Virus record (IMG/VR): IMGVR_UViG_3300010883_005406
Span: 1 to 21,707 of that record
Reading direction: 5' to 3' (one strand)
DNA length: 21,707 bases
From: a virus
Shown piece by piece: positions 10,007-20,869 of this stretch (positions are counted from its first letter, which is position 1; the number at the start of each line of letters is the position of its first letter). Below the pieces are notes generated by a model. The model saw nothing but the letters and a program-made list of their open reading frames with translations, was not told the DNA's origin and searched no databases. Position numbers and translations under genes: made by a program.

Positions 10007-10300
10007 ATGGCTAGTCTATACATTCAAGAATACGAAACCTGTCCTAACCAAGGTGAGGTTCAGGCCGGGCAGGAACCAGCACTGGCGTCCCAAAAGATCA
10101 CGTTCACTACGTCGGCTCAGTCTGCTGCGTTCAATGCCAAGACACAGTTCATACGCGTGTGGGCTGATGCTGCTGTATGGCTTGCGTTTGCTGCGTCCCC
10201 GACTGCCACAGTTGCCAGTATGCCGGTATCAGCTAGCACCGCTGAATACTTCGGGGTTCAGGCTGGTGAGAAAGTAGCCGCTTACGATGGAGCAAGCTAG
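10007..10300 (+). CDS. Small phage structural protein, partner of the 139-aa protein (97 aa)
   Basis: An AGGAG site precedes the ATG, 11 bp after the previous stop. The order is a short N-terminal strand (MASLYIQEYETCPNQGEV), a Q-x-x-x-x-Q-EPALASQKITFTTS segment, AFNAKTQFIRVWADAAVWLA, an SPTATV loop and the closing AEYFGVQAGEKVAAYD. This is a compact all-beta layout seen, from memory, in many phage genomes directly beside a protein like the 139-aa neighbour. No catalytic residues are obvious. It is probably a virion or fibre accessory protein co-expressed with its neighbours. Its TAG overlaps the next GTG start (TAGTG). Confidence 0.75.
   Translation: MASLYIQEYETCPNQGEVQAGQEPALASQKITFTTSAQSAAFNAKTQFIRVWADAAVWLAFAASPTATVASMPVSASTAEYFGVQAGEKVAAYDGAS
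10289..10292 (+). promoter_or_regulatory. Ribosome binding site deciding a GTG start
   Basis: GGAG lies 7 bp before the GTG at 10300. Good spacing supports that GTG, which overlaps the upstream TAG by one base, as the start of the propeller gene rather than the second in-frame GTG at 10306. Confidence 0.55.
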
Positions 10301-11568
10301 TGTTAGTGTCGCCCGGTAGCATTGGATCGCTGGGGTCACCTTCCGTTGCCGCTGCAGCATCTGCTGCACCCCTAGGTACTCTACTACACACCTTGGACAA
10401 CCCTAATGCTTATAGTACCAGTGCAGCCGATGTCTTTGCACGAGGAGTAGCTATATCAGAATCTTACGCTATTGCTGGTGCGTATCAGGAAGACGCCGGT
10501 GGTACTTCTTCAGGTGCAGCTTATATCTTTAATAATTCAACAGGTGCTCTACTACACACCTTGATCAACCCTAATGCTTTTTATACCAGTGCGGGCGATG
10601 AATTTGGTTGGGCAGTAAGTATATCAGAATCTTACGCTATTTCTGGTGCTCATAAAGAACGTGCTAATGATTATCAGTCATATTCAGGTAGAGCTTATAT
10701 CTTTAATAGTTCAACAGGTGCTCTACTACACACCCTGAACAACCCTAATGCTTATGGTACCAATGGGTATGATTACTTCGGAAATTCAGTAGGTATATCA
10801 GACACCCACGCTATTGTTGGCGCGTATCAGGAAGACGATGCCAGTGGTACTAATTCAGGTAAAGCTTATATCTATACTAGCGCAACCGGTGCTCTACTAC
10901 ACACCTTGGACAACCCTAATCCAGTTGGTACCAGCACCAACGATTTCTTTGCATATTCAGTAGATATATCAGAATCTTACGCTATTGTTGGCGCGTATTA
11001 TGAAGACGATGCCGGTGGGTCTGATTCAGGTAAGGCATATATCTATAGTAATTCAACAGGTGCTCTACTACATACCTTGGACAACCCTAATGCTTATAGT
11101 ATCAGTAATGGTGATAGATTTGGACAAAACGTAGGTATATCAGAATCTTATTCTATTGTTGGTGCATATGCCGAAGATGACGCCGGTGGTTCTTCTTCTG
11201 GTAAGGCGTATATCTATAGTAATTCAACCGGTGCTCTACTGCACACCTTGGACAACCCTAATGCTTATGGTACCAGTGCGTATGATAGCTTTGGATATTC
11301 AGTAGATATATCAGACACTCATGCTATTGTTGGTGCATATGCCGAGGACGATACCGGTCTTAGTAGTACGGGTAGAGCTTATATCTATGATGTATCAACC
11401 GGTGCTCTACTACATACCGCGGACAACCCTAATGCTTATAGTACCCCTGCGTATGATCTCATTGGATATTCAGTAGGTATATCAGACACTCATGCTATTG
11501 CTGGTGCGTATGGCGAAGACGATGCCGGTGGTACTTCTTCAGGTAAAGCATATATCTACAGCGTATGA
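10300..11568 (+). CDS. Seven-repeat FG-GAP-type beta-propeller protein (422 aa)
   Basis: After a short Ser/Ala/Gly leader (residues 1-25) the whole protein is seven tandem copies of a 55-58-residue unit: LLHTLDNPNAY, then a D-x-FGxSVxIS strand, (D/E)xxAI(V/A)GAY, EDDAGGxxSGxAYIY and xxSTGA. The FG...V.IS...AIVGA...ED...G.AY(I/V)(F/Y) pattern is that of FG-GAP repeats (integrin-like propellers, FG-GAP_2 type). Seven units make one closed seven-bladed propeller. The acidic EDDAGG loops may bind Ca2+. There is no signal peptide or membrane segment. Lying between small structural genes and the giant virion protein, it could be a receptor-binding or surface-exposed virion component; that role is inference. 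DNA identity between the repeats is high, implying recent amplification or homogenisation. Confidence 0.85.
   Translation: MLVSPGSIGSLGSPSVAAAASAAPLGTLLHTLDNPNAYSTSAADVFARGVAISESYAIAGAYQEDAGGTSSGAAYIFNNSTGALLHTLINPNAFYTSAGDEFGWAVSISESYAISGAHKERANDYQSYSGRAYIFNSSTGALLHTLNNPNAYGTNGYDYFGNSVGISDTHAIVGAYQEDDASGTNSGKAYIYTSATGALLHTLDNPNPVGTSTNDFFAYSVDISESYAIVGAYYEDDAGGSDSGKAYIYSNSTGALLHTLDNPNAYSISNGDRFGQNVGISESYSIVGAYAEDDAGGSSSGKAYIYSNSTGALLHTLDNPNAYGTSAYDSFGYSVDISDTHAIVGAYAEDDTGLSSTGRAYIYDVSTGALLHTADNPNAYSTPAYDLIGYSVGISDTHAIAGAYGEDDAGGTSSGKAYIYSV
10375..11565 (+). repeat. Tandem coding repeat, seven units of about 171 bp
   Basis: The phrase GGTGCTCTACTACACACC or a close variant starts units at 10375, 10543, 10717, 10888, 11059, 11230 and 11401. 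The steps are 168, 174, 171, 171, 171 and 171 bp, all multiples of three, so frame is kept. Other shared blocks are GACAACCCTAATGCTTA and ATATCAGAATCTTACGCTAT. Each unit encodes one propeller blade. Confidence 0.92.
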
Positions 11569-11663
11569 CGGATAAGCTATTGCGTGATGATGAGGATGTT
11601 CTAAACTTCGTACTAACTTTCGTAACGTCAGGTATATCAGATGACACAATGCACACTAGATAA
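11565..11663 (+). CDS. Possible 32-codon ORF, ATGA-coupled
   Basis: The ATG overlaps the stop of the propeller gene as ATGA. The frame encodes 32 residues (MTDKLLRDDEDVLNFVLTFV...) and ends 23 bp inside the giant gene. The peptide is acidic with a hydrophobic helix-like middle (VLNFVLTFVTSGI), more protein-like than random spacer. It would account for the 72-bp gap before the giant gene and could couple its translation. No strong Shine-Dalgarno is visible and it has no known motif. Confidence 0.35.
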   Translation: MTDKLLRDDEDVLNFVLTFVTSGISDDTMHTR

Positions 11664-14600
11664 CTTATCCGCAAAGGACCGCACCGCATTCACTGCCATC
11701 AAGCGCGGCAGGAAGATACAGGGTGAGTATGTTGGTGTAGAAATTCTACGTGACCAAGCCATTGACGATATGATTGTGGCAGCTAAGGCTGACGTTAGTG
11801 CTGTCATCTCCGAGGTACATAAGAACTATCCGGACCTTATCAACAAGAAGGGTGAGTTCCTGTCTGATCTCTCTGCGCTGGAGCGTAGCCGTGCAGCTAA
11901 GAAGCCCAAGGTTGTATCAGCACCGAAGGTCAAGGCGAAGGTAAAACTGACTGCGGAAGCTGCGCAGTTCTTGGAAGCTGCTAAACAGGGTATGCCGGGG
12001 TCGATCACTAATAATCTACAGCGTATTGCCAAAGAGAATGGCGTTACTGTAACTAAATCTATGACACCTGCGGACGTTATAGCTGCATTAGAGGCGATAG
12101 CAAATGAAACCAAAAAAGAAACCAAAGCTCGGAGTCCGGAGCCAAGCCCAGCGCCAGTGGTTAGAGAAGAACAACCCGCAAGCCCTTCAAAAGCTGGAGC
12201 AGGAACAACAGCCGTCAAAGATGCCGGAAAGAGTAAGCAAAAAGGTGGCAGCAAAGACAAACCAAAAAAGCTCTCAAACGCGGAAAAAAGTGAGTCCACT
12301 GAGCGGGGCAAGTCGGAACCGGCTGAGCGGGAAGAACAACAACCCACTGATATAACGCTGGTCTCCAAGAAGCGAGCTAAGGATTTCGCTGAGACAGGCA
12401 ACTACGATATAGTCCTGAGCAACGATACGACCTTCAAGATATTTAGAGACACCGCGCAGTTCGGCTATCCTGTGTGGTGGTCTGGAGATACGAACCTTGG
12501 CTCTACTATGGACGAAGCTGTTCAGCGTCTTATCGACGGGGCTAACGAAGTTGAAACCAAGACCGAACCTACCGTAGCCCCAGTTACCCACGCCTCAGCC
12601 AAGCACGCATGGAACGCACTGCGCGTAGAGGCAACTCTTGATCCTGCGACACGTAACTTCGTGAGTGTTCTGTCATGGGAGAACCTACCTGCTGGTGCTA
12701 AGAAGGAATGGACTACGCTGTTCGACGGTGGCAAGTACACAGTGGCTGATATGGATCGTATCTATGAGGAAGTATTCGATGACGAGTACGGCCCTGCTAT
12801 ACTAGACACAGCTAAGGCATTAGTTGAAGACCCCGGCTCTACTAAGGGTGAGTTCGGTGAAGGTGTTAGCCTACTGCTTGCAGCCACTGTGTTCAGCGAC
12901 GCCTCCAAAGGCTCGAAGCAGAACGCATGGCTCAAGGAAGCATGGATCATCGTGGATGATACCCTTGGCAACAGCCCTCTATATAGCACCCCGGATCACA
13001 CAGCATGGACACACGCCGCGTTCCTTAACAACGCCGTTAAATTCCTAGAGCCTAAGGTTAAGGAGTCTGCCAAGGGTGACACAGGTAGAGTAGAGAACCC
13101 GTCCTTCACCACTGGTAAGAACGAACGCCCATGGGCAGAGTATGCGTACGATAACAACATCCTGCTGGACGTAGTGCACAACGTGTATAAGGCAGGTCAT
13201 GTAATTGAGAAGCCAAGCAAGCGCATCTCCAAAGTCCTCACTACCATCACAGAAACGCAAGCCTCCACCGTGGAGCAGGCGGTTAAAGAAACTGACCTCA
13301 GACTCAAGCGGTTAAGTCAGCGCACTGAGGAGCATAAGGCTGCTACAAGTACACTGGTCGAGATGCTGAGGATCATCATTAGTGGCAAAGTCGATGGTGA
13401 GATGAGTCCAATGCTTGAGCGGTCATACATCAGTAGGGCTAAACAACTCATCGAAGAAGGCGCAAGCATGGAGTATGTGTTTGAAGGTGCACCGCTCAGT
13501 GAGTGGTTGCCCAACGGTGAGCTGCAATGGGAGAAGGGTAAGCTGAAACGTCCCGCCCTCGCTGACACCTCAGTAGAAGAACAGTTGAACGAGATGGACG
13601 CCAAACCTATCGAAGGTAGGAACTCCAACCTCGAAGATGGTTCGGTCGTCACCAAGCCTATAACCTACCTAGCAGCCAAGATTTATATCAGTAAAATTAT
13701 TAAGAAACTGAATGCGAAGTACGCACCTCGCATCCGGCACTACGCAGATCTAGCTGAGTTCAAGAAGACTGCGCTGTATAAAGAAGCTCTGGCCTCCCGG
13801 AAAGACGGGGCGAACATAATCACTGACCTCACGGCTGCGCACTCATTCGGTAACACGGTTGTAATATTCCGTAACAACATCAAGAACAAATCACACCTAG
13901 CCTTTGTTGTGGGCCATGAGGTACTGGGTCACTTCGGGCTGGCGTCAGTCATGCCGCAAGCCAACCTCAAGAAGTTAATGCGTACCATCTACGACACTGA
14001 CCCCCACGTACAGGCCGAAGCCAATAGGCGTATGGAGTTATATAGTGGTATGACTCAGACTGAGGCTACTGAGGAAGCCCTTGCTGATCTGGCTGGTGAA
14101 GTCGAGAGCAGCACGATCAACCGGGTATGGGCAGCGTTCAAGAACTTCTTGAACAAACTTGGTATTAAGTTCTCTGATGACATGGCACGGTACTACATCT
14201 CACAGTCACGCCGTATGCTGCGCACTGGTAACACTGGCGGTGTGTCAGCTAACGCGATCTATAATGACCTCATGGATATACAGAAGCGGTACATCGAGGG
14301 ACGGAACTCTGACAACCTCGCCAGCGTACGAGCTATAGTACCTACGCCCATGAACGGTGCCACCATACTTGAAGGCACATGGGATACGATTAAGACCGTT
14401 GGTGGTGACATGACATCTATAGAAGGTCTGGATACCAACGTCCGCAAGCTGGCTGACAGTAGTACCTATACATGGGAGAGCGCGAAACGTGGGCTTGAGC
14501 TGATTCAAACCCTAGACCAGAAGGCACTGCGTAGCCTTGGGCTGCGTAAGATATTCGACATCTTCCAGAAACATACTGAGCATGTACGCAAGCTACAGTC

Positions 14601-17600
14601 CATCCTCAACGACAAGACGAAGTTCTCACACAAGCAGAACTGGTTCAACAAAGCTGCGAAGAGCGACCAAGACTTCGACACCGGGGCTACCCGTGAGGAG
14701 AAGGCTCACGCCAACCAGTTGCTGCAAGAGGGACGCCTGTATCGTATGGAGCAGGTGGAGAAGGCAGGTGAGCAACTCATCCATAACCAAGCCGACATCA
14801 TAGAGATCAGCGACGATGGCCTCACTGTTAAGCGCAACGAAGCGAACATCATCAAGCTGCGTGAGGCTGGTGCTGTGAGCCGTGAGGAGTTCGAGGATGG
14901 CATAAAGACTATTAAGTATAATGATGCAGGTGAAGTCGAGAAAGGCAGTAAGCCCCATAAGTATAAGTCTGAGCCTATCTCTGATCGGGTGTGGGCGCTA
15001 TATGAGGAGCAGCGTGACGCTGTGAACGAAGCCGCCGTGATGGTGTATGAAGATAAGATCAAGGGTATGATTGGCTCGAAAGAATTAGAGTTGAACTATC
15101 TGCAAGGCCAACATGGGTTCAATGACGATACCAAAGATATTCTCCGCTGGGTAACTGCTGAATACTCCCGGCTGTACGATGAGGGTGGTCAGCTTGTAGG
15201 TAAGGGGTTCAAGTGGAAAGACGAGTCGATCACTAAGGCTAATGCGTTTATCCACCAAGTCACGCGTGTCATGGATAAGGACGGCGGCACGGCTAAGATG
15301 AAGGATTGGGTTGACGGATCGACGCTTGATGATGATAAACACTTGGAGCAATTCCGGAACAATCCTGCACTGCTGGAGAAGCTGGAGACGCTGGCAGAGA
15401 CACGCATTGAGAACGTAATGTCGATGCGTAATACCCTGATGGATATGCACCTGCTGGACACACAGTTAACCAACGCGAAGTACGCTGCCGTGAACTCAGT
15501 GTTGGCTGGCTACGTGCCGTTCGCACGCCGAGGCAACCATCAAGTCAGGGTACAGGCATATGATAAGGATGGTAAGGCCATCCACTTGGATGAACACGTA
15601 CAGGCTATGCTGTTCTACACACGTACCGACAGCCGTAAGAAGGCTGACGTTATCCGTGATGAGTTGAACGCCAAGTTTGCTGAGTTTGGTGACTCTGAGA
15701 TAAGTGTCTTCACAGGCGCACGCGATAAGGATGGTAAGGCTATCCCAGTCAAGCTGTCAGGTGTGACCTTCCGTGCTGATAGTGGTGCCGCTTCTCAGGT
15801 TCCTCCGCTAGGTAGCAGTTTGAACTACGACGACATGGCTAACACACTGATGCGGGCCGGGATCAAACTGCGCGAACAAGACCGTGAGAGCCTTGTGCGT
15901 ATGACCACCAAGCAGCACAGCACAGCCCGTGGCAAGCTGAGACTAAGCGGCAACCCCGGTTGGGATCAGAACATCATGCGTGGTGTTGCAGAACATCTTG
16001 AGATGCAGACGCACGTTGCTGGTAAGAATAGGTACAAGCATAACATCGCACACATCCTATCGGATAAAGTATCAGATGGTAGCGTGTGGTTTGGTGATAA
16101 GGTACGGCTGGCTAAACTCCAGAAGGCGTTTCTTACTGCGTCTCCTGAGAAAAAAGATGCTGCTCGTAAGGCCATGACTGAGTACCAGCATATGTTTATA
16201 CATTCATCCTCTGATGAGAACATATCTGTTGTGGACTACCATGGTGAGCGTAGCACTGTGAGTGGTAAGGGTAATGGCAACCGTTACCGGGATGACGCGG
16301 CTAACCTTGTGGAATATTACAATCGTAATGTGAACATCGACGATGCCACTGGCGAGGGTATGGTAAACAAGATGGCCGGACCTCTCATGTCTTGGACGGC
16401 GGCTATGCAGATCGGTGGCTCTGTCGTATCGGCAGGGATTAACACCACATCATTGGTCTCACATGCAGGATTATATCTATCCACATACAACAAGAAGACA
16501 GGTTACGGCGGTGGGCACGGTATGATGCGTTCGTACAATGCCATCTGGCAGGCGGGCCGTGACCTCTCGTTGTTCAAGGATGGGTTCAAGCAGGACGTTG
16601 CAGGTAACGTGACACTGCTCAAGGAACTCATCGCCCCAACGTGGAAGGTAGGGGAACGGCGCAACGGTATGCTCAAGGATGAAGCCGAAGCTGTGCTTGC
16701 TGCCACAGAGAAGGGTGTCCTCACACCTAACATGCACAACGCACTGGTCGGTACATCCCGCACTGGTAAGCAGGACAGTAAGAAGGATAAGGCCATCGAA
16801 GTGTGGATGTCCATGTTCTCTAAGACTGAGCAGTACAACAGGCGCGTCACGTTCTTAGCATCATACCGCCTAGAGAAAGCCCGTATGATTGAGCAAGGCA
16901 CTGACGGCTCAAGCTTCAACAGTGCAACGTCTAACGCTTCAAAAGATGTTTACCAACGCTCGGTGCTGGCAGTTAACTCTTCGCAGGGTAACTATTCGCA
17001 GTTCAACCGTCCAGCCATAGCGCGTGGCAACTTCGCCCAGTATCTGTACATGTATAAACAGTTCGTGGTAATCACGGTACAGTTAATGAGGAACATGGGC
17101 CGCACAGAACAGTTATATTTCCTAGCCTTCCTCGTACTGACCAGTGGCCTCAAGGGTATCCCGTTCTCTGAGGATTTCATGGACCTCGTTGATAGCCTCA
17201 TGCAAATGTTTGATGTTAAGTGGGAGGGTTTGGAGACATACATCGCCCGTGGTGCTGACGCTATTGTCCCCGGTTCCTCCCGTGTTGTTCTGCGGGGGTT
17301 CTTGGATTACTTCACAGGCGGCACAGTATCCACACGGCTTGGGCATGGCAACATCGTCCCCGGCACCAGCTACTTCTTAGCAGGGGCTGACACAGCGCGT
17401 GAGGCCATGGATGTACTCGGACCTGTGGCGTCTGCCATGAAGGGTGCGTCTGACTCTGCTGTACTGGCGGCTAGGTACGTTGGTGAAACGGTGGGTATCT
17501 TTGACGACACTACAACCCTCAAGGATGTGGCACGTAGCGGCGGTGGGTTCTCTGCTCTGAAAGCTGTTGCAGAGGGTGCGATCTTTATGTCCGACGGCAG

Positions 17601-18000
17601 CATCACTAACAAACGCGGGCAGGTAGTGTCCGGTGATTTCACTCCGGTTGAGATGATTGCTCGGATGATAGGCTTCTACCCAAGTTCAGCCACCGCACAG
17701 TACGATGCGAACAGGCGGACCGAACGGATGCGTGGCTACATTGACGAGCGCAAGGCCCATTACATACAGGCATACCGTAAGGCTGGCTCATCAGCAGAAC
17801 GTACGCGTATTGTGAAGATGGTGCAGGACTGGAACCGTGACGCTAGAGGTACACCGTTCGTTATTACGAACTTCGTAACGTCTGCCAACAAGTCACGTAA
17901 GGAAGCACAACGCAGTGCCTCAGGTAGACTGTTGAAGTCCGCGCCTAAGACACTACGTGATTTCCATAAAGAGCAAATGCGTTTGCAAGGTGTCAACTAG
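11641..18000 (+). CDS. Giant PLxRFG-type virion protein with metallopeptidase motif (2119 aa)
   Basis: The ATG has an AGGT site about 8 bp upstream. Residues 1-155 are helical and basic; 155-238 are a Lys/Glu/Ser/Pro linker overlapping another frame. H759-E-V-L-G-H764 is an HExxH zinc site in VVGHEVLGHFGLAS, with E811/E812 (TEATEEALADLA) the likely third ligand, as in zincin domains of polyvalent phage proteins. GYVPFARRGNHQVRV (about 1290-1304) aligns with the PLxRFG signature, here altered to PFARRG. The C-terminal 830 residues keep the order typical of that family: a hydrophobic segment about 1584-1616 (IGGSVVSAGINTTSLVSHAG), FNRPAIARGNFAQYLYMYKQ, a membrane-like helix about 1824-1841 and MIGFYPSSATAQYDANRRTE. 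Such proteins are thought to be packaged and ejected with DNA. Targets of the protease are unknown. Confidence 0.82.
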   Translation: MTQCTLDNLSAKDRTAFTAIKRGRKIQGEYVGVEILRDQAIDDMIVAAKADVSAVISEVHKNYPDLINKKGEFLSDLSALERSRAAKKPKVVSAPKVKAKVKLTAEAAQFLEAAKQGMPGSITNNLQRIAKENGVTVTKSMTPADVIAALEAIANETKKETKARSPEPSPAPVVREEQPASPSKAGAGTTAVKDAGKSKQKGGSKDKPKKLSNAEKSESTERGKSEPAEREEQQPTDITLVSKKRAKDFAETGNYDIVLSNDTTFKIFRDTAQFGYPVWWSGDTNLGSTMDEAVQRLIDGANEVETKTEPTVAPVTHASAKHAWNALRVEATLDPATRNFVSVLSWENLPAGAKKEWTTLFDGGKYTVADMDRIYEEVFDDEYGPAILDTAKALVEDPGSTKGEFGEGVSLLLAATVFSDASKGSKQNAWLKEAWIIVDDTLGNSPLYSTPDHTAWTHAAFLNNAVKFLEPKVKESAKGDTGRVENPSFTTGKNERPWAEYAYDNNILLDVVHNVYKAGHVIEKPSKRISKVLTTITETQASTVEQAVKETDLRLKRLSQRTEEHKAATSTLVEMLRIIISGKVDGEMSPMLERSYISRAKQLIEEGASMEYVFEGAPLSEWLPNGELQWEKGKLKRPALADTSVEEQLNEMDAKPIEGRNSNLEDGSVVTKPITYLAAKIYISKIIKKLNAKYAPRIRHYADLAEFKKTALYKEALASRKDGANIITDLTAAHSFGNTVVIFRNNIKNKSHLAFVVGHEVLGHFGLASVMPQANLKKLMRTIYDTDPHVQAEANRRMELYSGMTQTEATEEALADLAGEVESSTINRVWAAFKNFLNKLGIKFSDDMARYYISQSRRMLRTGNTGGVSANAIYNDLMDIQKRYIEGRNSDNLASVRAIVPTPMNGATILEGTWDTIKTVGGDMTSIEGLDTNVRKLADSSTYTWESAKRGLELIQTLDQKALRSLGLRKIFDIFQKHTEHVRKLQSILNDKTKFSHKQNWFNKAAKSDQDFDTGATREEKAHANQLLQEGRLYRMEQVEKAGEQLIHNQADIIEISDDGLTVKRNEANIIKLREAGAVSREEFEDGIKTIKYNDAGEVEKGSKPHKYKSEPISDRVWALYEEQRDAVNEAAVMVYEDKIKGMIGSKELELNYLQGQHGFNDDTKDILRWVTAEYSRLYDEGGQLVGKGFKWKDESITKANAFIHQVTRVMDKDGGTAKMKDWVDGSTLDDDKHLEQFRNNPALLEKLETLAETRIENVMSMRNTLMDMHLLDTQLTNAKYAAVNSVLAGYVPFARRGNHQVRVQAYDKDGKAIHLDEHVQAMLFYTRTDSRKKADVIRDELNAKFAEFGDSEISVFTGARDKDGKAIPVKLSGVTFRADSGAASQVPPLGSSLNYDDMANTLMRAGIKLREQDRESLVRMTTKQHSTARGKLRLSGNPGWDQNIMRGVAEHLEMQTHVAGKNRYKHNIAHILSDKVSDGSVWFGDKVRLAKLQKAFLTASPEKKDAARKAMTEYQHMFIHSSSDENISVVDYHGERSTVSGKGNGNRYRDDAANLVEYYNRNVNIDDATGEGMVNKMAGPLMSWTAAMQIGGSVVSAGINTTSLVSHAGLYLSTYNKKTGYGGGHGMMRSYNAIWQAGRDLSLFKDGFKQDVAGNVTLLKELIAPTWKVGERRNGMLKDEAEAVLAATEKGVLTPNMHNALVGTSRTGKQDSKKDKAIEVWMSMFSKTEQYNRRVTFLASYRLEKARMIEQGTDGSSFNSATSNASKDVYQRSVLAVNSSQGNYSQFNRPAIARGNFAQYLYMYKQFVVITVQLMRNMGRTEQLYFLAFLVLTSGLKGIPFSEDFMDLVDSLMQMFDVKWEGLETYIARGADAIVPGSSRVVLRGFLDYFTGGTVSTRLGHGNIVPGTSYFLAGADTAREAMDVLGPVASAMKGASDSAVLAARYVGETVGIFDDTTTLKDVARSGGGFSALKAVAEGAIFMSDGSITNKRGQVVSGDFTPVEMIARMIGFYPSSATAQYDANRRTERMRGYIDERKAHYIQAYRKAGSSAERTRIVKMVQDWNRDARGTPFVITNFVTSANKSRKEAQRSASGRLLKSAPKTLRDFHKEQMRLQGVN
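12104..12355 (+). CDS. Possible overprinted small gene inside the giant gene (83 aa)
   Basis: This ORF lies in the +1 frame relative to the 2119-aa gene. Its ATG has a GAGG Shine-Dalgarno at 12091-12094, 9 bp upstream. The product is strongly basic. Residues 9-46 contain LGVRSQAQRQWLEKNNPQAL and then QQPSKMPERVSKK, matching from memory a recurring small phage motif of the form (K/R)SxAQxxxL..N.P......PSKxLPE(R/K)V. The remaining half is Lys/Ser/Asn-rich. In the overlapped region the giant's own frame is low-complexity linker, as expected where one frame constrains the other. Alternatives are chance resemblance in A-rich DNA, or a relic of an ancestral separate gene now read through. Function is unknown. 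Confidence 0.45.
   Translation: MKPKKKPKLGVRSQAQRQWLEKNNPQALQKLEQEQQPSKMPERVSKKVAAKTNQKSSQTRKKVSPLSGASRNRLSGKNNNPLI
12112..12290 (+). other. Three A-AAA-AAG slippery heptamers, one per frame
   Basis: Perfect dnaX-type heptamers occur at 12112-12118 (in phase with the 83-aa ORF), 12264-12270 (in phase with the giant gene) and 12284-12290 (third frame). A -1 slip at the first would carry a ribosome from the 83-aa ORF into the giant frame. A -1 slip at the second would end the giant product after seven more residues (ALKRGKK) at TGA 12291-12293, giving about 217 residues. No convincing stimulatory hairpin lies 5-9 bp downstream; a weak 5-bp stem is at 12311-12324. Confidence 0.35.
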
Positions 18001-20869
18001 GGACAACGCCAAGCTGGCCTAGGGTCATCTCGTCTGCGGTATCTTGTGCAGCGTCAAGGAAGCCCTTCATCTGTGGTATGTTGAGGTTGATACCAATGAC
18101 ATACTGCTGTCCAGCTTTGAGGGCAGTGTCCTTACTCATCACGAAGCGACCACCACCGGGTGTGGCGTTACCATTAACTGCAGCGATTTCCTTCTTGAGT
18201 TTACCCCAATCATACCCATGACCAGCCAACCATTTCCTGAACTCACCTTGGACAATCATCACCGTACCCCTGTCGAACTTATCGAGGTTGCCTGTGCGGT
18301 GTACATCATAGCGTATAAGGATAGCGGCCTTAGGTAGCCGTGTTGGATCGAAGGTGGGTGTTACGTTCTGCGTGTGCATGATGGTGATACCGTTGGCGGC
18401 TGTCTCGTTGAGGTACTGGTGGACCAGATCGAACCCGTCTAGGTGGCTGTCCTCAATGGCGGTACGCATACGCTCAATGCGCTTGACCACGTACTTGATA
18501 CCCTTACCGAAGTCATAGGCGATCAGCCCTGCCTCGGCTGCTATGGTGCAACCCACATGCTGTAGAACAAGTTCTGTTTCCCAATACCGTTCTGTACCGG
18601 CAAACTCGATACCATATATCTCTCTGAATTGTTCAATGGCTTTCTTGATACGCTTGACCAATCCATCCTTACCAATCTTGAGTAGTTCAATCGCATAGAG
18701 GTGGCCTATCACACCGTGGTTATCACCAAGGAAGTCCATGATGGTGCGACCAGCCTTCGTACCCTTCGCAAACATCGGGTGAACGGGAGTGTATATCTCC
18801 AACAGCCGTGCCATCTGGGCATCACTCTCCACACCAGACGCTGCCATCTTGGAGGTGAACGATATGTTCGTGGATACCATCACGTTGGTGGCCCACTGCT
18901 TCGACTTACGCTCCGTGGCAAAGCGGGTTAGCCTGCCCTTGTCCTTACCCTGCGTGACTTGGTAACAGAACGAACCCACATTATCCATGTAGGTACACTC
19001 ATCAATGGTCATCGGCAGGTTACAGTACGTACCCAACTTGTTGTACAACGCATTGTGCGTAGACTCTGCTGATAGATATAGGGACTTCGGATTACCCCAC
19101 ACACTGCGGGACCATGCTTGAATGACTGACTTCCCTGCACCTGTATCTCCGTGCAATGAGATGGTGAGGCCAACCAGCCCTGTTAAATCCCATAGCGGAG
19201 CAGAGAACGAAGTGTTCAACGCGAACATATGCCATGGCATCCCCGCCTTCTCCAGTACGCCAGTAGCCTCAGCCCACTCTGTCGCTGAACCAGCGTGTGT
19301 GTATGCTGTCTTGCTTGTGTCACCTGCTGCTGCGCCTAGCGTAACAACTTCTGTAGTGACAGTGCCATCGACTTCACGTTTGTATAATCTCTCGCCTATT
19401 ACGAACTGAGTATGATCTTCTTTCCAACCCATCGCATCGTGTATGTTGGACATCGAACGCTTCTTACGTAACTCATCCATGTATGTTCTAAGCATGAACC
19501 TAAACCTATCTGTTTGCTTCTTGCCTGTCAGGACAATCCCCTGATCTGCAATGGTGGTGGCGAACTCACGACTCTCATCGTTAAGGTACGCTTGCCTGAA
19601 CGTCAGGTCTTGCCAGCCTACGTGTGGACGTTTCCATTTGTAACGCACAGTCTCATAGCCTAGGTGTTCATCACGCCCGTAGCCTATGGGGTACAGTATG
19701 AATGGGCATACATCTATCTCAGTACCATCCACTGACTGCACGATACCATGTGCTGCCTCTTTAAATATCGGGGGCAGCTTAACCTCTGGGTCAACGCCTT
19801 CGGGCAGAGTGTTCGGGTCTCTTACGATCTCTACATGCTGAGTCCCAAGTCTCGCAGGGGTGGATATACTACCCTTGAGTGGGCAGTTGTCGCAGCCCTT
19901 CTTACGTTCTTCCTTGAACCTAGCGCAGGTGGCTGGACCTGTAGCCTGTGCCTTCCACTGTGCCATCTTAGCTAGTGTCTTGTGCTCATCGTAGTCAGGG
20001 TGCTTGCTGCTCCATAGCTTTGCTACGTTATCTGAGTCCTCGCAGTATGCGGCAATACCCATGAGGGCATACCATGTAGGCTCTGAGGCTTTGTCTTGGT
20101 TGTCCACGGCCCATGCGACCTGCTCACACCCATTGTATATAGTACCAGCATTAGATGGTTGATATAGGTTCTCCATCTCCAGTGCTTGTGACAGGCCAGA
20201 CTGCGGGGCTACGATGGTGGGTACTACTGTGCCCATATCTGTCACCAGTGTGGGCTTCGCGCTGCCCAAGATGTTCTGTAGCGTCTGCTTGGAGTGTTCG
20301 GATCCCTCAGCCAACACGCGCACCTCGGCTCCGTTCTTCGGGTTGTGTGTACCAGCGGGGCGCAGCACACGGGCAGCGTCAGCGGTAACTGCGGCATCAA
20401 AGAAGAACCCGTTGACTTGGAACGTAGCCTTGAGGGCATCAGCTAACAGTTGCCACTCGTCCTTAGGCAACGCCTCATCCAGTATCCAGTACACATGCAG
20501 ACCAGTACCGGAGTTCACCACCATGGGTGACGGCATCTTGGTAACTGTGATGAACTGTGCGAGTGCTTCTAATCCCAACGCCTGTGTGGCGTATCCCTTT
20601 TCTTCTGCTGCTTTTGCTGCCCCGCAATCAATGTCGAGGAACAGAACTTTATTTAATTCTACGTTATCTTGTGTTCGATTTAGATTTGTTTTGAATGTGG
20701 ACGTTGCGTAGTATGTGTTGTTGCCGTTTGCATCTAGCTGTTGACAACGGGTTGCGAGTTCCTCAACCGTACCAAAGAAAGACTGCTGTGGTGGACCATC
20801 ATTGATTACTATGGCGCAGTAGTTACCTTCGGTAGGGAGAACCCGCTTGAAGAAATCAAGCGTGTCCAT
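17993..20869 (-). CDS. AEP-like primase fused to DUF927-like SF3-type helicase (958 aa)
   Basis: GAGGTATGGGA precedes the ATG. The N-terminal part carries archaeo-eukaryotic primase motifs: FLDIDC (D79, D81), SGTGLHVYW (H125) and the acidic segment around D158-D164 followed by ARVLRPAGTHN. A PriCT-like helical part (about 260-310) and a Cys cluster (C315, C326, C329, ending CDNCPLKG) come next. The C-terminal part is a DUF927-like ATPase: Walker A GDTGAGKS (K580), Walker B MTIDECTY (D623, E624), and a sensor-like VMVSTN (N668). One polypeptide could thus lay down primers and unwind DNA at the fork. It runs opposite to the structural genes and its last 8 bp overlap the end of the giant gene. 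It probably forms an early replication operon with the two genes upstream. Confidence 0.85.
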   Translation of the reverse strand: MDTLDFFKRVLPTEGNYCAIVINDGPPQQSFFGTVEELATRCQQLDANGNNTYYATSTFKTNLNRTQDNVELNKVLFLDIDCGAAKAAEEKGYATQALGLEALAQFITVTKMPSPMVVNSGTGLHVYWILDEALPKDEWQLLADALKATFQVNGFFFDAAVTADAARVLRPAGTHNPKNGAEVRVLAEGSEHSKQTLQNILGSAKPTLVTDMGTVVPTIVAPQSGLSQALEMENLYQPSNAGTIYNGCEQVAWAVDNQDKASEPTWYALMGIAAYCEDSDNVAKLWSSKHPDYDEHKTLAKMAQWKAQATGPATCARFKEERKKGCDNCPLKGSISTPARLGTQHVEIVRDPNTLPEGVDPEVKLPPIFKEAAHGIVQSVDGTEIDVCPFILYPIGYGRDEHLGYETVRYKWKRPHVGWQDLTFRQAYLNDESREFATTIADQGIVLTGKKQTDRFRFMLRTYMDELRKKRSMSNIHDAMGWKEDHTQFVIGERLYKREVDGTVTTEVVTLGAAAGDTSKTAYTHAGSATEWAEATGVLEKAGMPWHMFALNTSFSAPLWDLTGLVGLTISLHGDTGAGKSVIQAWSRSVWGNPKSLYLSAESTHNALYNKLGTYCNLPMTIDECTYMDNVGSFCYQVTQGKDKGRLTRFATERKSKQWATNVMVSTNISFTSKMAASGVESDAQMARLLEIYTPVHPMFAKGTKAGRTIMDFLGDNHGVIGHLYAIELLKIGKDGLVKRIKKAIEQFREIYGIEFAGTERYWETELVLQHVGCTIAAEAGLIAYDFGKGIKYVVKRIERMRTAIEDSHLDGFDLVHQYLNETAANGITIMHTQNVTPTFDPTRLPKAAILIRYDVHRTGNLDKFDRGTVMIVQGEFRKWLAGHGYDWGKLKKEIAAVNGNATPGGGRFVMSKDTALKAGQQYVIGINLNIPQMKGFLDAAQDTADEMTLGQLGVVPS

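Follow-up and report, generated by a model that had tools for sequence, protein, structure and literature searches.

The window, a stretch of 21,707 nucleotides corresponding to positions 1 to 21,707 of the IMG/VR virus record IMGVR_UViG_3300010883_005406, carries a giant virion gene inside which a short ORF lies in the +1 frame of 11641-18000 (Table 1). The nested ORF, whose TAA stop occupies 12353-12355, had been described in an initial annotation as an 83-codon +1 ORF with its own ATG and a GAGG at 9-bp spacing, and these elements are exactly present. Its product, described there as basic, has a pI of 11.5, with 21 K/R residues against 4 D/E. The giant's own frame had been called low-complexity at this place, which its composition confirms. 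The giant matched no Pfam family, and a weak match to phrog_2250 was seen at residues 115-157. Directly upstream of it lies 10300-11568 (+), whose product, a protein of the virion region, contains seven stretches of FG-GAP repeats (Pfam FG-GAP_2, E 9e-62). At its 3′ end, the giant overlaps by 8 bp (17993-18000) a convergent 958-aa gene (minus strand, 17993-20869), whose product is DUF927 / primase-helicase-like.

Table 1. Coordinates of the nested gene, its host gene and their parts in the window.
Feature	Position	Strand	Basis
Nested gene, 83 codons	12104..12355	+	ORF list; homologous +1 ORFs
GAGG, Shine-Dalgarno-like site	12091..12094	+	9 nt 5′ of ATG 12104
Residues 14-33 of the nested product, a predicted helical hairpin forming the core of the conserved RSQAQ..L....P motif	12143..12202	+	AlphaFold2
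Giant virion gene, 2119 aa, host of the nested gene	11641..18000	+	ORF list, relatives
Giant N-terminal module, codons 1-154	11641..12102	+	frame-0 conservation with L003, L014
Giant codons 155-238 over the nested gene, low-complexity linker	12103..12354	+	K/E/S/P/Q-rich composition
Part of the giant's conserved C-terminal body, residues 666-1997	13636..17631	+	35% identity to L001

ORF length was rejected as evidence for a nested gene: other +1 stop-to-stop stretches in the giant reach 95, 79 and 76 codons, so that the length of the nested ORF alone is not significant. Homologues were more informative. IMG/VR was scanned with the 83-aa product, then with a profile. The first scan revealed, at locus L001, a +1 ORF also of 83 codons inside a homologous giant, the product of which is 51% identical to that of the window over 82 aa; the profile added nested +1 copies at L003 and L004. 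A scan with an alignment of the giant's C-terminal body, which is independent of the small gene, returned 24 loci, and the small-protein profile detected a +1 ORF in every one of them that covers the relevant N-terminal region. At L013, L016, L019, L028 and L032 the profile found no match, and there the giant runs past the 5′ end of the locus. Within the window's subfamily, the homologous nested ORFs are 44-67% identical to the window's product. Homologous +1 ORFs thus occur in many phages, rather than being missing everywhere or broken in close relatives. The scans turned up no phage closely related to the window itself, and the giant as a single query sequence retrieved no relatives. Against annotated phages, blastn with the giant gave no match and tblastn with the small proteins of the window, L003 and L029 gave nothing significant; matches in annotated phages were obtained when consensus sequences of the wider family served as queries. 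A sequence search of the PDB yielded no meaningful match.

Two subfamilies of the small protein can be distinguished, the window type, GVRSQAQ...SRNRLSGKNNNPLI, and a second one, MP[FI][KR]SK.Q..WL..N.P..A.....T....LP. A scan with the latter as query returned 80 loci, of which 55 are clear cases of nesting in the +1 frame of a longer same-strand ORF (these counts are contigs, partly redundant, and not independent lineages). The host is a giant of about 1750-3460 aa in 16 cases, and a gene of about 380-440 aa in the other 39. At L054, this shorter host gene is flanked by the portal gene and by that of a crAss-type virion structural protein (phrog_13704) occupying the place of the capsid, with TerL and GroES encoded upstream. 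In sequence terms, the small family is thus nested in +1 within two unrelated structural genes, the giant and, in crAss-like environmental phages, a gene of about 400 aa situated between portal and capsid. The remaining loci are mostly stand-alone or N-terminally fused, and a few are ambiguous. At L071, L102 and L110, longer proteins (248, 229 and 312 aa) have the motif as their N-terminus, and the hairpin is thus found in fused form too. At L097 and L100, three long frames overlap at the motif (701 aa in +1, 268 aa in +2 and 433 aa on the other strand), and these two loci were excluded from the tests as ambiguous. When bacterial and archaeal genomes were also scanned, nested copies were found at L131 (a Sulfuritalea MAG), L134, L139, L140, L142 and L145, along with stand-alone ones.

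The stand-alone form of the family is phrog_1375, a 70-position profile with no function assigned, which combines the N-terminal motif MPF[KR]SKAQ....P..A.....T....LPE.V with a basic tail; stand-alone copies begin with the same MP[FI][KR]SK as the second subfamily. Nested copies from the crAss-like hosts and from several giants match this profile (E 1e-7 to 4e-4), and the N-terminal motif S..Q........P.......LP is present across 40 sequences, with S13, Q16 and P25 invariant and P41 nearly so. The subfamily of the window differs in having GVRSQAQ and a conserved SRNRLSGKNNNPL tail, and in being nested, not stand-alone. The window's own product did not match the phrog_1375 profile and is linked to it only through the second nested subfamily; we therefore regard it as a distant relative of phrog_1375, not as a member. 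With that qualification, the recurring stand-alone phage motif to which the initial annotation had pointed is real. Unannotated stand-alone copies were also noticed in deposited records, at L120:5001-5102 (phage C75C1) and L122:5001-5108 (Synechococcus phage S-CBS2).

Among cultured phages, Flavobacterium phage vB_FspP_elemoA_7-9A carries an unannotated 42-aa copy at 54224 of NC_055852.1, in the +1 frame at codon 1220 of gp21 (‘structural protein’). The BLAST match is weak (E 0.5), and the family HMM gives E 2e-15, an optimistic value as a copy of the elemo sequence was included in its training. The small frame is retained in elemo species A, C, D, E and F, and among four variable sites in the overlap one alters the small protein while at least three alter gp21. 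By HMM, the nested gene is absent from crAss001 and phi14:2, so not every such phage requires it, and it is likewise absent from F116, Y7, Y11, Mel-JY34 and 8P, which are named phages with more distant giants.

Which of the two frames is constrained was addressed by synonymous shuffling of 36 pairs, in which one protein was kept and its codons redrawn 300 times according to host codon usage. With the giant's protein kept, the +1 similarity was never reproduced (mean z 11.8 and 9.1, above all 300 shuffles). With the small protein kept, the similarity in the giant's frame was explained to a far larger extent (mean z 5.0 and 3.4, down to 1.1). Shared ancestry contributes to both sets of z values, and the argument lies in the contrast between them: at 9-12 versus 3-5, the +1 frame is the tighter one. 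In further, independent sets, identity was higher in +1 than in frame 0 for 243 of 253 pairs and for 28 of 28. Substitutions in 14 close pairs, which are relatives of the window and do not include the window itself, were distributed 37/23/85 over nested codon positions 1/2/3, nested position 3 being host position 1 and nested position 2 the host wobble position. Downstream of the overlap, the same pairs showed the usual host periodicity (37/19/83 over host positions 1/2/3). Close relatives thus differ chiefly at the wobble position of the nested gene, and the shuffles and the close pairs both place the +1 frame under protein-level constraint.

These results bear on the possibility that the +1 frame is open merely because the codons of the giant allow it. 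Stretches of like length do exist elsewhere in the giant, and in the window-type group the probability of an open +1 frame given frame 0 is 0.03-0.2. But protein conservation beyond every shuffle, the substitution periodicity and the stand-alone homologues refute a chance ORF, to which we give practically no credit. As far as sequences can tell, the chance level is exceeded by conservation, namely by the homologues nested in +1 in many further phages, and not by length. We conclude that ORF 12104-12355 is very probably a genuine, conserved overprinted gene, presumably translated. The nested gene first proposed from the window has thus gained conservation in +1 far beyond that imposed by the giant's protein, a +1 periodicity and its own Shine-Dalgarno sites.

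Sites of the latter type precede 14 of 15 nested starts in the window-type giants, compared to 6.6% of the 5212 ATGs of the same loci. None was found before the 39 crAss-type nested copies, and the elemo copies likewise have none, which suggests initiation by another route in these phages. Missing Shine-Dalgarno sites are common in phages of Bacteroidota. Nested copies are always in +1, although the other frame is often easier to keep open. This constancy would also be expected if the +1 product were made by programmed frameshifting, which would add it to the C-terminal end of the giant's N-terminal module (codons 1-154), rather than started at 12104, and that module does stop right where the nested ORF starts. 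Yet the ATG and the Shine-Dalgarno site are conserved, the nested gene lies anywhere between codons 100 and 1160 of its host, behind unrelated sequences, and stand-alone copies start at the same MP[FI][KR]SK, all of which make frameshifting very improbable.

The frame of the giant is also under selection. When the small protein was kept, the chance of frame 0 being open was P ≤0.01 in 13 phages, 0.003 on average in 23 and 0 in 8, and still frame 0 is open across the overlap in all nested copies. With probabilities so near zero otherwise, this evolutionary evidence indicates that the giant's frame is selected to stay open and is translated through. In stand-alone copies, the corresponding host frame is closed in 18 of 19. 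Frame-0 conservation is also seen in the modules placed 5′ of the nested gene, reaching about 71% over 787 aa. One could propose instead that the N-terminal part, the small protein and the body are three separate genes, the joined giant ORF not being read through; the position of the nested gene at a joint, the linker-like host segment over it and the closed host frame of the stand-alone copies would fit such an arrangement. But an open frame 0 in all nested copies has a probability close to 0 without selection, and the upstream modules and the body are in one frame in every relative, so that we hold three separate genes to be most unlikely.

Structure prediction of the nested product with AlphaFold2, for which one row from a named phage record was left out of the input alignment, gave a helical hairpin with a pLDDT of about 90 or more over some 20 residues (14-33) and low values elsewhere. 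Gene context offers a hint on function. The nested copies of crAss-like phages and several stand-alone copies are encoded in the head gene module, and the copy of the window in an internal-virion region, where the genes upstream of its host match internal virion protein and transglycosylase families. The stand-alone copies of L087 and L098 directly follow a gene of about 630-650 aa in portal position (without PHROGs identity) and are followed by a gene of about 280 aa and the major head protein; that of L137 comes after a head-tail adaptor. Since both host genes and several stand-alone copies belong to a head or internal-virion module, we tentatively propose, as the likeliest function, that the small protein could be a head-assembly accessory or an internal virion component, made together with a scaffold-like or injected protein. 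A role after injection, or as a DNA-binding regulator, would suit a very basic protein; giants of this type resemble polyvalent proteins thought to be injected (PMC5512222), and faint matches to PHROG regulator profiles were obtained. These matches (E 0.15 and 0.027) are not significant, however, and stand-alone copies adjoin head genes; we see such a role as rather unlikely.

The position of the nested gene is informative as to the origin of the overlap. In the 12 giants measured, 1710-2027 codons follow the nested gene, while 100 to 1160 precede it. With a constant 3′ length and a varying 5′ length, the nested gene sits at the joint where variable modules at the N-terminus meet a conserved body of about 1700-2000 aa. 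In the window the nested gene is immediately followed by a small domain (‘FRDTAQFGYPVWW’; 12352-12585, giant residues 238-315), which in L001 immediately precedes it (L001:4793-5047). As this domain is found on opposite sides, modules seem to have moved around the nested gene. The joint position, this movement and the stand-alone copies lead us to favour a small gene that was there first, with larger ORFs later joined across it. It appears to be the older partner, and the giant's low-complexity linker looks written over it. That the +1 frame may be the older, structured one had been suggested from the window, and it agrees with the stand-alone and N-terminally fused members and with a host segment that has little conservation of its own. 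The suggested fusion by read-through is supported by the place of the nested gene at the joint, the fusion history being a reconstruction.

The sequence of events that best explains these findings is the following. A small family, old in tailed phages and stand-alone as phrog_1375, would have been trapped between the varying modules at the N-terminus and the giant's conserved body; loss of frame-0 stops would then have joined modules and body into one ORF over the small gene. In crAss-like phages, the gene between portal and capsid would have overwritten the same small family. Today, ribosomes would initiate at the nested Shine-Dalgarno site and ATG inside the late-gene mRNA of the giant and produce a separate basic protein of about 9.4 kDa, made of a short N-terminal helical hairpin and a disordered basic tail, and those making the giant would translate this stretch in frame 0 into a disordered linker. 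On balance we think it probable that unrelated large structural genes have grown over an ancient small head gene of tailed phages on two or more occasions, each time in the same relative frame. Such reverse overprinting would make the large gene the newcomer, paying with a disordered linker; co-expression with scaffold-like or injected proteins would have become fixed, and the small gene would be systematically missed by annotation.

Phage annotation indeed omits this conserved gene of a head or internal-virion module, as in the elemo phages checked, which now offer a cultured system where the nested gene can be tested. The natural series of stand-alone, fused and nested forms lends itself to tests of how overlaps arise and why they persist, and scanning the low-complexity linkers of giant phage genes may reveal more nested genes.

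As to known systems, the C-terminal body of the window's giant matches those of the phage polyvalent / PLxRFG / DarB-like giants (F116, H66, LKA5), in which, unlike here, the nested gene was not found among the named relatives tested. A conserved block of the giant, GHEVLGHFGL (residues ~755-770), is similar to the HExxH zincin motif in the metallopeptidase domain reported for polyvalent proteins (PMC5512222). The second host gene is equal in position and in acidic helical make-up to the crAss-like gene between portal and capsid (phi14:2 gp089, crAss001 gp31), the ‘gene 77’ position (PMC7886860), but there is no significant sequence match between them, and both of these genes are without the nested gene. 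In the open-access literature searched, nothing was found on such nested genes or on phrog_1375.

Overprinted nested genes are known in phages, such as Rz1 in Rz, or E in D and B in A of phiX174, and overprinted genes are usually regarded as young. To our knowledge, large DNA phages offer few well-supported examples of long nested genes on the same strand. The known cases share with ours a complete gene lying within another on the same strand, in another frame and with its own start. They differ in being lysis or small-phage genes, whereas the small family described here occupies two structural genes unrelated to each other, is also represented by stand-alone relatives and is seemingly older than the host segment. 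Overprinting itself is thus not new; what the literature searched did not contain is a conserved family, kept in a constant frame within two unrelated structural genes of large tailed phages, in which the nested partner is apparently the older one.
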